Program-made: the position numbers and the translations under genes | Shown here: positions 27,719-60,806 of the stretch, one piece after another | Layout of the letters: each line of letters begins with the position of its first letter | How positions within the stretch are numbered: the stretch's first letter is position 1 | The notes under the pieces: generated by a model | What the model was told of the DNA's origin: nothing | What the model saw: the letters and a program-made list of their open reading frames with translations, nothing else | The model's database searches: none | Source: Moritella sp. JT01 | GTDB taxonomy: Bacteria > Pseudomonadota > Gammaproteobacteria > Enterobacterales > Moritellaceae | Length of the DNA: 64,000 nucleotides | Direction: 5' to 3' | NCBI RefSeq assembly: GCF_001574435.1 | Contig: NZ_LOCN01000018.1 | Location: 1 to 64,000 of the forward strand

Positions 27719-29140
27719 ATGAGAAAAATAATATTAACGTCACTCAGTGCCTTAGCTATATCCGCAGCTTTAGCACCAACATTCGCTATTGCACACGGGT
27801 ATGTAGCAGGTGCATTTCCTTCTCGCGTTAATTTATGTCATGCAGACAATGGAGCTAAAAATGATTGTGCAAATGCTTCATACGATAGACAAAGCTTAGA
27901 AGCGCCAAAAGGCTTTCCAGCTACAGGTCCTGTAGACGGTAAGATCGCATCTGCACAAAAAGGCGGGTCATTTGATGTGCTTGATCTGCAATCATCAAAC
28001 AAATGGTATAAAACTAAAATCCAAGCGGGTTTTAATGATTTTCACTGGTTTAGCACAGCTAACCATAAAACCACCGATTATGTTTATTACATCACCAAGC
28101 CTGATTGGGACCAAAACGCACCACTAACCCGCGCATCTTTTGATTTAGCCAATCCTTTCTGTGTCATTGATATGGGCGGCCAACAACCACTGAAAAATTT
28201 AGGCAAGGCACACAGCTGTAACGTACCAGCGCGCAGTGGTTATCAGGTTATTCTTTCCGTTTGGACGATCGACGATACCGCGAATGCGTTCTATAATGTT
28301 ATCGATGTAGAATTTGAAGACGGTGTAACCCCACCACCACCCGATGTTTGGGAGCAAAGCACCACGATTGCACCACAAGAAGACTTAGCCGTCGGTGATA
28401 AAGTAAAAGCCCGCTTCTTTGATTCATCGGTAGGTTCATTCACCACTGAAACCATCATTGAAATTAACTCAGCTGCCAATGGTAAAAAAAATACGTGGTC
28501 TTACAACCTAGCCACTGCAATTAATGCGAATCAAACCGATGCGCAAGCGGGTGCAAAAAGTGACAACGATATGTTTACCCCTCTTTATGGTAATAACCCT
28601 ATCTACTTAAAAGCGGACTCTAAGCTTAGCTCTGTCGAAGTTGATATCATTAAAGGTGACGTTCCTGTTGATGACAGCATTACCGTTTTAGGTCTAGAAG
28701 ATGAATATATAATTGACAACAATACTGTTAATGTCTCGTTTAGCATTGAAGCTGTCGGTAACTTAAATGTCACCAATACTATCTTTGATGCAAATAATAA
28801 AGCCATCGCATCAAAATCTAAAAATGTTAATGACACTGTTGAGCACTTTACAATATCACTCAACAATGCAACCGCAGGCACGTTTAAACTGGTCTCAATT
28901 GCCAACTCGAACGATAACAGCAACCTATCATTACAAGAATCAAATAGCTTCAAAATCCTTGATGCTGACATCCCTGGTGACTGCCAAGATATTCAAGCAA
29001 TTGATATCAGCAAGCAATACAAACCAGGTAATGAAGTTTCTTACCAAGGTAATGTTTACCGTGCAGAACGTTGGACAGATGTCGGCAGAACACCTGATAC
29101 ACAGTATTCAGGTTGGGTATTAGTCGGGCCGTGTGCATAG
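27719..29140 (+). CDS. gbpA: GbpA-like secreted chitin-binding LPMO (AA10)
   Basis: This 473-residue secreted copper enzyme starts with a signal peptide ending AIA25, giving mature N-terminal H26, the first His-brace ligand; H116 (in NHKTTDY) is the second. Domain order is AA10 (26-200), GbpA domain 2 (about 210-320), a third beta-domain (320-415) and a C-terminal CBM5/12- or CBM73-like module with YKPGNEVSYQGNVYRAERW...GW. It should cleave crystalline chitin oxidatively and promote attachment to chitin and mucin. Vibrio GbpA is about 485 residues. It is followed by a terminator and is divergent from the c-di-GMP phosphorelay operon. Confidence 0.92.
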   Translation: MRKIILTSLSALAISAALAPTFAIAHGYVAGAFPSRVNLCHADNGAKNDCANASYDRQSLEAPKGFPATGPVDGKIASAQKGGSFDVLDLQSSNKWYKTKIQAGFNDFHWFSTANHKTTDYVYYITKPDWDQNAPLTRASFDLANPFCVIDMGGQQPLKNLGKAHSCNVPARSGYQVILSVWTIDDTANAFYNVIDVEFEDGVTPPPPDVWEQSTTIAPQEDLAVGDKVKARFFDSSVGSFTTETIIEINSAANGKKNTWSYNLATAINANQTDAQAGAKSDNDMFTPLYGNNPIYLKADSKLSSVEVDIIKGDVPVDDSITVLGLEDEYIIDNNTVNVSFSIEAVGNLNVTNTIFDANNKAIASKSKNVNDTVEHFTISLNNATAGTFKLVSIANSNDNSNLSLQESNSFKILDADIPGDCQDIQAIDISKQYKPGNEVSYQGNVYRAERWTDVGRTPDTQYSGWVLVGPCA

Positions 29141-29964: not shown

Positions 29965-30282
29965 TTACTGTTCAGATTCTGCAGCATTGCTCTTCACTTC
30001 ATCAATACAGCACTCATCTTGTAAAAAACCAATCACAGATTGTAATTTTTCATACTCTGCCACGCAGTACAAAGTACGTCCTTCACGGCGCTGAGAGATT
30101 AATCCAGCAGATGCTAGACTAGAAATATGATGCGATAATGTCGAACCTGGAATTGATAACCGTTCTTGTAAACCACCAACCGCAACCCCCTGATAACCCG
30201 CACGGATAACACATTTAAAAATAGTTAATCGTGTGGGATGCCCAAGTTCTTTCAGTGCTTTCGCAATAATATCAATATCCAT
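29965..30282 (-). CDS. ArsR-family metalloregulatory repressor
   Basis: This 105-residue winged-helix protein has LGHPTRLTIFKCVI at the start, an HTH near 35-60 (IPGSTLSHHISSLASAGLI), a wing (RREGRTLYCV) and a Cys pair in the C-terminal tail (DECCIDEV), suggesting thiol-based metal(loid) sensing. ATG 30282 follows GGTGGAG; the open frame continues 29 codons upstream but would swallow its promoter. A dyad TATATTTC-N10-GAAACATA lies 32-57 bp upstream and matches one in front of the permease gene at 58732, which is the likely target along with its own gene. Confidence 0.87.
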   Translation of the reverse strand: MDIDIIAKALKELGHPTRLTIFKCVIRAGYQGVAVGGLQERLSIPGSTLSHHISSLASAGLISQRREGRTLYCVAEYEKLQSVIGFLQDECCIDEVKSNAAESEQ

Positions 30283-30313: not shown

Positions 30314-30339
30314 TATATTTCGATATTAGCAGAAACATA
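30314..30339. promoter_or_regulatory. Candidate ArsR operator at arsR promoter
   Basis: Dyad TATATTTC (30314-30321), 10-bp spacer, GAAACATA (30332-30339), ahead of arsR. Fifteen of 16 arm positions match the dyad at 58745-58770 upstream of the ArsP-like permease. Confidence 0.6.
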
Positions 30340-30377
30340 TTCACAGCGCCAATAGATAACGTATAACAACAGACAAG

Positions 30378-57802: not shown

Positions 57803-58732
57803 TTAAAAAATAAACTGGTAAAGGGAACCAGCCCCAACAGCCATGCCTAAAACCACAAATAAAAACGCGGCGATCATCTGGTTTTTAAAGATAGATTTAA
57901 GTAAAATCACTTCCGTTAAACTCGCACCAGCACTACCAATGATTAACGCCATTACCGCACCTAGACCCATGCCTTTGGCTGCTAATGCCGCACTTAATGG
58001 AATAACCGCTTCTGCTCGAATATACAGTGGAATGCCAATCACAGCCGCAATGGGGATCGCAAACGGGTTATCTTCACTGGCCAGACTCGCCACAAGTTCT
58101 GTTGGCATGAAGCCATAAATCATGGATCCCAGCGCAATACCACCGATTAAATAAGGCAACACTTTGTGAAAGTCAGCCCAGGTGCTGAGCCAGATTTTCA
58201 TCCACTTGCTTACCGGTGCTTGTTTACCGCCACAGGTAGATGCACAGCCTTGCGACTTTGCTACAAGTACAGGCTCAATATACGCTTGTGGTTTGACGTA
58301 TTTTTCAAAGCCCAATTTCTCCAAAGTATAACCAGCAATAACCGATACACCCATTGCGATAGTAAAGTAAAACACAGTCACTTTAATACCAAAGGTGACT
58401 GCAAACAGGCCGATAATAACGGGGTTTAATAGCGGACTGGCGAATAAGAACACCAACATAGTACCGAACCCTGCTTTAGCGCGTAACAAACCTTTCAAAA
58501 AAGGAATTGTTGAACATGAGCAGAACGGCGTGATCGCCCCTAACAAACCAGCAACGATATAACCCTTACCGTGCTTACCACTCAAGATACTTTGGATCTT
58601 GGCTGGCGGAATATACTCTTGCAACACACCGACTAGATAACTAATCAATAAAAAAAGTACCGTTAACTCTACGGCTAAGAAACCAAACATACCTAAGGTA
58701 TCCATCACCATTGCTTGTGTAATGTTAAACAT
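57803..58732 (-). CDS. ArsP/SO_0444-like permease
   Basis: This 309-residue membrane protein has about eight TM helices and the family motif PFCSCSTIPFLKGLL with FGTMLVFLFASPLLNPVIIG. A Cys-containing cytoplasmic loop (SQGCASTCGGKQ) suggests metal(loid) or thiol binding. Relatives export methylarsenite (ArsP) or Cu/Zn (SO_0444). Two near-identical dyads upstream match the ArsR operator at 30314-30339, so it is probably repressed by that distant ArsR protein. Confidence 0.82.
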   Translation of the reverse strand: MFNITQAMVMDTLGMFGFLAVELTVLFLLISYLVGVLQEYIPPAKIQSILSGKHGKGYIVAGLLGAITPFCSCSTIPFLKGLLRAKAGFGTMLVFLFASPLLNPVIIGLFAVTFGIKVTVFYFTIAMGVSVIAGYTLEKLGFEKYVKPQAYIEPVLVAKSQGCASTCGGKQAPVSKWMKIWLSTWADFHKVLPYLIGGIALGSMIYGFMPTELVASLASEDNPFAIPIAAVIGIPLYIRAEAVIPLSAALAAKGMGLGAVMALIIGSAGASLTEVILLKSIFKNQMIAAFLFVVLGMAVGAGSLYQFIF

Positions 58733-58744
58733 AATTTAAATCTC

Positions 58745-58770
58745 TATATTTCTAGAATATTGGAAATATA
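58745..58770. promoter_or_regulatory. Candidate ArsR operator 1 (permease promoter)
   Basis: TATATTTC (58745-58752), 10-bp spacer, GAAATATA (58763-58770), perfect 8-bp arms, 13-38 bp upstream of the permease start. Confidence 0.65.
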
Positions 58771-58794
58771 AGCTTCAAAATAAATTATGTCAAG

Positions 58795-58820
58795 GATGTT
58801 TCTATAAATATGGAAATATA
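58795..58820. promoter_or_regulatory. Candidate ArsR operator 2 (permease promoter)
   Basis: GATGTTTC (58795-58802), 10-bp spacer, GAAATATA (58813-58820). A 23-bp core (58799-58821) matches operator 1 at 19 positions, exactly 50 bp apart. Confidence 0.6.
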
Positions 58821-59107: not shown

Positions 59108-60703
59108 TTAATACTCTATATTATTCATTTTTATAGGCTCTAGATTCCACGCATGCCCACACCAGTTAGAACGACTATTGTTATTATCGATCTTCGCTTC
59201 AAATAATTTCGTCCCAGTATTATTGATAACTTGAATGATATTTTCAGTATTACCTGTTGCCGTTGCATAATTAATTACATAATTAGTACCTGACTGTATA
59301 ACGCTAGAACAAATGCTCGAGTAAACCCCATCATCGTAGCTCGAGATTACCTCAGTTTCCATCATATCTTCTTTAGCAAGACTGTATGTCTGAACTAGAC
59401 TAGTACCATTCACTGCCGCTCTTGTATCCGGATTTGTAGAGTTATTAAAGAGCAAAAGATCACCATTTGAATCAAGTGACAAACTATGCTGTCCGATTGG
59501 GTACTCACCATTTTTAGAAGATAAATTGTAGCTATCCAATTTATACTGACTATTTGCCCAAGTTCGAGTTGCGTCGCCCAAGACCCAAATGATGTCACCT
59601 GTTTGATAATCAAACTTCATCACAAAGCTATTTCGAAGTGAGACAATCACAGAGTCATCAGAAGCACTATATATAGCGGAATTCATATGTGACCAGTCAG
59701 AATTAGCAAAAAATCCGGTATCATCTCCTCCCTCTTTTTCAATATGCGTTTTAATAATATCGCGCATATTCCAAGAGTTTAAAACCGTCGCATCATCTTT
59801 AACATCAGCAAGCAATGTACCTTTCTCTTGTCCAAGACTAGTGTCTTTTATACCATGAAGTTCAACAAGGTAGCTGTCCGTTTTACCTGCATTGATATTA
59901 TGATGGAAAACTAAATCAGAGTAGCCAGGAAGCGTTAATTTATCTTCTTTTCGAGTACCATCTAGTTGAATAGTTTGAAGGTTATTACATTGTTTCCCAC
60001 TTTCACAGCTGTAAAAACTACGGTTTTCAACATCAACGCCATCACCCAGCAATATCTTTCCTTTAGTAAAGGTACTTGCAGTGGCATTATTTTTGTTACT
60101 TAAATCTGAATAATCAAGCATCCACCTTACTTCACCATCCAGATCCATGATAACTGGCGAACTTAAAGATTTTAGGTAAAAATAATCATCTGCATAAGTC
60201 GTATTAGAGTCAGCTTTTTGTGTCACACGAATACTTTCAAAGGTTGAATTGAAATCATCAATTGTCGTTGTTGTGTCATTAGGCGCTATAAATCTTGGCG
60301 TTGATATACTGATTGATTTAGGTATAGACTTGGGTACACCGGCATCATCATAATGAATAGTTATGTCCACTTGATTGGTATAATCTGCGTATAAGGCAAA
60401 AATAGGCAGTCTCAAAACACCATTATCTATCGTTAACGACGTTATATCGTACGAAGCCTTAACTGCACTACTTATTGCATTTACTTTCGGGGTGATCTCA
60501 AATTCGACTTTACTTATGTTATCAATAATATCATCTAATCCATTACCACTTATATCTACTGAAGAAATAAATGTAGAGTCATTATTATCATTTTCAACAA
60601 TTGTAAAGCTGTTTGAATTTGCGTAAGAATTAGCGCTTAATGCACCGATTGCAAGAGAGATTGAAGTTACGAGAAATTTACGTAAGTTTTTTTTTGCTTC
60701 CAT
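59108..60703 (-). CDS. assT: Arylsulfate sulfotransferase (AssT-like)
   Basis: The 531-residue periplasmic enzyme has a signal peptide (MEAKKNLRKFLVTSISLAIGALSANSYA) and a small N-terminal beta domain followed by a six-bladed propeller. Catalytic histidines are in LVFHHNINAG, NSDWSHMNSAIY and GQHSLSLDS, plus an Arg in SLRNSFVMKF. It transfers sulfate between phenolic compounds without PAPS. In E. coli, DsbL/DsbI partners are adjacent; none are here. The last residues (GHAWNLEPI) match the family's C-terminus. ATG 60703 is chosen as the signal peptide start. Confidence 0.85.
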   Translation of the reverse strand: MEAKKNLRKFLVTSISLAIGALSANSYANSNSFTIVENDNNDSTFISSVDISGNGLDDIIDNISKVEFEITPKVNAISSAVKASYDITSLTIDNGVLRLPIFALYADYTNQVDITIHYDDAGVPKSIPKSISISTPRFIAPNDTTTTIDDFNSTFESIRVTQKADSNTTYADDYFYLKSLSSPVIMDLDGEVRWMLDYSDLSNKNNATASTFTKGKILLGDGVDVENRSFYSCESGKQCNNLQTIQLDGTRKEDKLTLPGYSDLVFHHNINAGKTDSYLVELHGIKDTSLGQEKGTLLADVKDDATVLNSWNMRDIIKTHIEKEGGDDTGFFANSDWSHMNSAIYSASDDSVIVSLRNSFVMKFDYQTGDIIWVLGDATRTWANSQYKLDSYNLSSKNGEYPIGQHSLSLDSNGDLLLFNNSTNPDTRAAVNGTSLVQTYSLAKEDMMETEVISSYDDGVYSSICSSVIQSGTNYVINYATATGNTENIIQVINNTGTKLFEAKIDNNNSRSNWCGHAWNLEPIKMNNIEY

Positions 60704-60806
60704 TTTAAATAAACACCTATAGTTATATTCGTACACAAATATGAATGAACACATATATTATATACTTATAAAAACACCCATTTATATATGCGTTTATTAT
60801 ACTTTT

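Follow-up and report, generated by a model that had tools for sequence, protein, structure and literature searches.

A rare dyad shared by an ArsR repressor gene and an unlinked ArsP-type permease gene in Moritella sp. JT01

The window analysed in this work is a stretch of 64,000 nucleotides from Moritella sp. JT01. The window carries an arsR gene and a permease gene that are 28 kb apart, and the promoters of both genes contain closely matching dyads. This raises the question of whether the ArsR repressor controls a permease gene to which it is not linked. The features concerned are as follows.

29965 to 30282, minus strand: arsR, encoding an ArsR/SmtB repressor of 105 aa (HTH_20 and NF033788 above cut-offs; Cys73, Cys91, and Cys92 invariant)
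30314 to 30339, minus strand: predicted arsR operator dyad (28.4 bits, independent matrix)
30323 to 30328, minus strand: likely arsR -10 box TAATAT, located mid-dyad (sequence reading)
30347 to 30352, minus strand: likely arsR -35 box TTGGCG, 18 bp from the -10 box (sequence reading)
57803 to 58732, minus strand: permease of 309 aa, Pfam ArsP_1 (PF03773), with conserved cysteines
58745 to 58770, minus strand: predicted proximal permease operator dyad (32.9 bits), overlapping the -10 box
58765 to 58770, minus strand: permease -10 box TATATT, identical with the first hexamer of the proximal dyad
58788 to 58793, minus strand: permease -35 box TTGACA, 17 bp from the -10 box
58795 to 58820, minus strand: predicted distal permease operator dyad (26.5 bits), directly upstream of the -35 box

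Genes and dyads of the window

The arsR product carries the winged-helix ArsR domain (HTH_20, 43.9 bits, cut-off 27) and matches the metalloregulator model NF033788 (64.5 bits, cut-off 55). The start codon of arsR is the ATG at 30282 on the minus strand, which lies 31 bp from the dyad and is preceded by a plausible ribosome site. The ArsR orthologues begin with the same first residues as the product of this ATG, and a longer open reading frame with a TTG start is without support from the orthologues. Cys73, Cys91, and Cys92 are kept in 78 of 78 orthologues, which marks a conserved thiol site that is predicted to act as the sensor.

The permease belongs to the ArsP_1 family (PF03773, 163.3 bits, cut-off 32.3). 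Its Cys71 and Cys73 (TPFCSCS) and the loop pair Cys163/Cys167 are conserved among 84 sequences. The permease scored far under the cut-offs of every named NCBIfam exporter, where arsenic_eff (NF037962) gave 20.8 bits against a cut-off of 100. An arylsulfotransferase (ASST) gene is located upstream of the permease gene (59108-60754), and a gene for a GbpA-like chitin-binding lytic polysaccharide monooxygenase is located at 27719-29140. The genome also carries a second, more distant ArsP_1 permease (L025, G000:C12:39145-39972) in an open frame of 664 codons, and an ArsR-type HTH match lies about 2 kb from it.

The dyad upstream of arsR is TATATTTC-N10-GAAACATA and the proximal dyad of the permease is TATATTTC-N10-GAAATATA. 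The earlier note on this DNA had claimed that both dyads agree at 15 of 16 arm bases with the same spacing and that the permease has another dyad at exactly 50 bp upstream of its first, and both claims hold. The note had also proposed a scan of the whole genome, where many hits would argue against the link. Few matches were obtained. When the 4.84 Mb genome was scanned for TATATTTC-N10-GAAAYATA, the sites at 30314 and 58745 were the sole perfect matches, and allowing up to one mismatch added the dyad at 58795 alone. The reversed pattern that served as the control has zero matches in the genome at one mismatch. A looser pattern gave 16 strand matches in the genome compared to 30 for its reversed control, and thus the genome holds no hidden excess of dyads.

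A weight matrix was derived from 156 sites, all of them in permease promoters from genera other than Moritella. The dyads at 58745, 30314, and 58795 scored 32.9, 28.4, and 26.5 bits respectively, and the next best site within the window scored 8.5 bits. The best score in a random sequence of 5 Mb was 14.8 bits. The genome outside the window was covered by pattern scans whose matches were then scored with the matrix, and no further target above 9.1 bits was identified among the matches to two looser patterns. The three dyads of the window are the only strong sites found in the genome by these scans.

The arms of the dyads are AT-rich, and at three mismatches the number of matches in the window is near the chance expectation. 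Both observations would fit a chance resemblance between two AT-rich dyads. However, the three dyads are unique genome-wide, they are conserved across the genus, and the independent matrix places them 12 to 18 bits over the best random site. The probability of a chance match is negligible, and this origin is ruled out by the genome counts and the independent matrix. The link between the dyads is real and far above chance.

Conservation of the dyads and linkage of the genes

An ArsR orthologue is present in 11 of 11 Moritella genomes and the permease in 10 of 11, with the genome of the window counted. Wherever both genes are on one contig, about 19 to 69 kb separate them, which indicates that the split between arsR and the permease gene is old in Moritella. 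Across the arsR promoters of 11 congeners, bases within the dyad agree with those of the window in 97% of cases and bases outside it in 60%. The permease promoters of Moritella show 80% identity inside the dyads and 48% outside. By reading, a TTGGCN-N18-TARTAT layout is recognisable in the arsR promoters of several congeners. One congener (G008) carries an extra copy of the system, in which both dyads lie between a second permease gene and a divergent gene for a 65% identical ArsR. This extra copy (L262:1-3648) adjoins genes that by eye resemble those of contractile phage tail and baseplate, which suggests that it lies on mobile DNA.

Eighty permease loci from Vibrio, Aliivibrio, Photobacterium, Shewanella, Colwellia, Pseudoalteromonas, and other genera were compared. 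The statement of the earlier note that an ArsR gene is often next to this permease family is borne out by these loci, where the orthologue is present in 66 of 80 and the dyads are common to both genes. The pairs are mostly divergent with the intergenic region in common and usually two dyads in it. No other neighbour gene is widely conserved around the permease in the 80 loci. In 73 of 78 permease promoters from genera other than Moritella, the distance between the best two dyads is 48-52 bp. An exception is one lineage (L251, L252, and L253) whose two dyads have a distance of only 25 bp and share one base. No dyad accompanies the second permease homologue of one genome (G050, L261).

The permease promoter layout of two boxes and two dyads is kept in most of 90 orthologous promoters. 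TATATT or TATAAT occupies the -10 place in 69 of 90, and at least 69 of 90 agree with TTGACA at four or more of its six bases when read 22 or 23 bases ahead of the dyad start.

Genomes whose permease is without an intact neighbouring ArsR have ArsR elsewhere. All 11 of the separate arsR copies that could be oriented bear the dyad, with scores of 20-36 bits. Among 395 order-level genomes, ArsR is present in 76 of 76 genomes with the permease and in 22 of 319 without it, an association that is inflated by relatedness. No permease-bearing genome without this ArsR was found among those 76. The suggestion of the earlier note that the separated genes keep the same operator extends beyond the window, as each gene retains the dyad in Moritella and in several other genera.

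Proposed regulation and inducer

The dyads, their conservation, the co-occurrence of both genes, the overlap with the promoters, the invariant cysteines, and the ars genes behind the same operator elsewhere can be read directly from the sequences. We infer the binding of ArsR, its inducer, and the substrate that is transported by the permease. ArsR would almost certainly control both arsR and the unlinked permease gene, because the same rare dyad is located at both genes and is conserved in relatives where the genes usually adjoin. We assign a probability of about 0.82 to the full reading, where ArsR would repress its own gene and the unlinked permease gene via the dyads, would be released by a trivalent arsenical, and would descend from an ancestral pair that has split.

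In this proposal, a dimeric ArsR would bind the 26-bp dyad with the consensus TATATTTCGATAATACTAGAAATATA. It would repress its own gene via the single dyad and the permease gene via the two dyads that flank the -35 box, where the proximal one covers the -10 box. Occupation of the proximal dyad by a dimer would obstruct RNA polymerase. Repression by occlusion is the simplest mechanism since the -10 box of the permease is inside the proximal dyad, and the distal dyad may provide cooperative or looped repression. The cluster of Cys73, Cys91, and Cys92 would bind a trivalent arsenical, for which methylarsenite or a similar organoarsenical is the most likely candidate and arsenite a possible one. 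The release of ArsR would then allow the permease to be made, which would pump the arsenical out of the cell. The layout in Moritella would have arisen from a divergent arsR-permease pair whose genes parted while both kept the operator.

The dyads might instead be bound by another regulator, either another ArsR or an unrelated factor, with arsR merely a fellow target. The genome does carry three other canonical ArsR-type genes, yet those three loci are without such a dyad (all of their dyad scores are at most 1.1 bits), and control by another ArsR of the genome was rejected on these scores. The dyad also tracks this one ArsR subfamily across genera, orders, and plasmids, whether or not the genes are adjacent, and control by another regulator is very improbable. 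A separate ArsR of the same genome is located beside an Acr3-like gene, which was named by eye, and the dyad is absent there.

The nature of the signal is a separate matter. ArsR/SmtB proteins sense many ligands, and the same repressor and operators could respond to mercury, antimony, tellurite, persulfide, or oxidants sensed by the cysteines, with the permease handling that ligand. The arsR product has a weak match to the sulfur sensor BigR (43.1 bits, cut-off 155), and among named families the permease comes closest to a Cu/Zn exporter and to SaoE, with scores that fall far short of both cut-offs. However, ArsR is assigned to neither BigR nor CmtR by their models, and the same ArsR and operator precede arsD, arsA, acr3, arsC, or arsH in genomes and plasmids. 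A signal other than an arsenical is unlikely, with a chance that is clearly higher than that of another regulator.

The inducer is most likely a trivalent arsenical, as arsH or arsD-arsA-acr3-arsC stand behind this ArsR and operator in other genomes. One genome (G145) has an arsR2-arsD-arsA-acr3-arsC cluster, as assigned by Pfam matches, that is headed by the same ArsR gene with the same dyads in front of it. In enterobacterial plasmids, the same ArsR is followed by arsH, and p1658/97 also carries an ECF sigma factor gene and arsD. The metal(loid)-inducible unit predicted by the earlier note is supported by these ars genes and by the three invariant cysteines. An arsenical inducer is likely given the ars genes behind the same ArsR and dyads together with the response of a biosensor from Shewanella putrefaciens 200. 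The biosensor consists of ArsR (Sput200_1227) and the arsP promoter (Sput200_1226), and methylarsenite elicits a strong response and arsenite a weak one (PMC12124457). Methylarsenite is the favoured inducer, and the three cysteines could also hold arsenite.

Known systems and a third target

The system is of a known kind that consists of an arsenical-responsive ArsR and an ArsP-type permease, and its layout is unlinked. Among described systems, the closest is that of S. putrefaciens, a methylarsenite-responsive ArsR/ArsP pair in which ArsR (SpArsR) is beside the arsP permease and methylarsenite relieves repression (PMC12124457). The C-terminal pair Cys101/102 of SpArsR, as given in a secondary account (PMC13236881), resembles Cys91/92 of the window ArsR. 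The arsP-type pairing with a common promoter region was likewise found in the relatives of the window genes (66 of 80 loci). SpArsR reportedly needs Cys83 and Cys101 (work of Chen, Nadar and Rosen in 2017), whose spacing of 18 is equal to that of Cys73 and Cys91 in the window ArsR. We infer from the layout and the cysteine positions that the window pair may be orthologous to the S. putrefaciens 200 pair. The systems may differ in their sensor sites, as SpArsR is described in the literature as being without the third site cysteine, whereas the family of the window ArsR has three invariant cysteines. The window genes are 28 kb apart, unlike the adjoining SpArsR and arsP genes, and the double operator is known here from sequence alone.

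AfArsR of Acidithiobacillus ferrooxidans (Cys95/96/102) has a C-terminal vicinal cysteine pair at the aligned place. The best PDB match of the window ArsR is 6j05, whose cysteine pair at residues 95/96 aligns with Cys91/Cys92. In contrast to AfArsR, the third cysteine of the window ArsR is at position 73 and not C-terminal to the pair, and the gene neighbourhoods are not alike. The SO_0444-type Cu/Zn exporter and SaoE share the Pfam family ArsP_1 with the window permease, but the permease scored only 90.1 bits against NF033936 (cut-off 300) and 80.2 bits against NF040736 (cut-off 325) respectively.

The clusters of the enterobacterial plasmids p1658/97 and pK-1L-1 comprise permease, arsR-arsH, ECF sigma factor, arsD, and glutathione synthase genes. 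They carry the ArsR subfamily of the window with its three cysteines intact, together with the same operators, where the dyads scored 24-34 bits on the two plasmids scored (L278 and L279). Unlike the window genes, the plasmid genes form a cluster on mobile DNA that includes arsH and glutathione synthase, and the plasmid permease is longer (377 aa compared to 309 aa). The ArsR-permease pair on enterobacterial plasmids (L278, L279, L283, and L284) is accompanied by the antibiotic-resistance genes mph(A), sul1, and tet(A).

The findings provide a precise predicted operator for a widespread ArsR subfamily of marine bacteria and multidrug-resistance plasmids, and a probable case of a regulator that is kept in step with its target gene after separation. 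The operator can also reveal candidate regulon members away from arsR, for example, a glutathione-synthetase-like gene. This gene is of the eukaryotic type (PF03917 and PF03199) and is directly downstream of arsR in four congeners (G003, G005, G007, and G010), where it has its own dyad pair around a TTGACA box (L155-L158, L263, and L264). It is a putative third target of ArsR in these congeners. G005 is without the permease and has kept arsR and the glutathione-synthetase-like gene. No such gene was found in the genome of the window (E<=0.001), and a second glutathione-synthetase clade (L159-L162, L102, and L107) has no dyads upstream. Of 48 glutathione-synthetase-like genes of the eukaryotic type that were checked across the order, 17 have this arsR within 15 kb, and in some genomes the gene directly follows the permease gene.

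The three-cysteine ArsR subfamily could govern a dispersed organoarsenical-defence regulon of gammaproteobacteria through the 26-bp dyad, with an ArsP-like exporter and a glutathione-synthetase-like enzyme whose genes can part while the operator is kept. We regard this broader proposal as tentative and give it somewhat less than even odds. If true, the export and the thiol supply of the regulon would be induced together. No earlier description of the shared operator was found in searchable papers. The neighbourhood of glutathione synthetase and permease genes had been noticed before, as a figure legend of PMC6429310 marks both genes in ars and arr modules of Shewanella and Aeromonas. At several loci (L249:1802-2344 and L283:7190-7735), arsR and the glutathione-synthetase-like or arsD genes also have an ECF sigma factor gene between them or close by.
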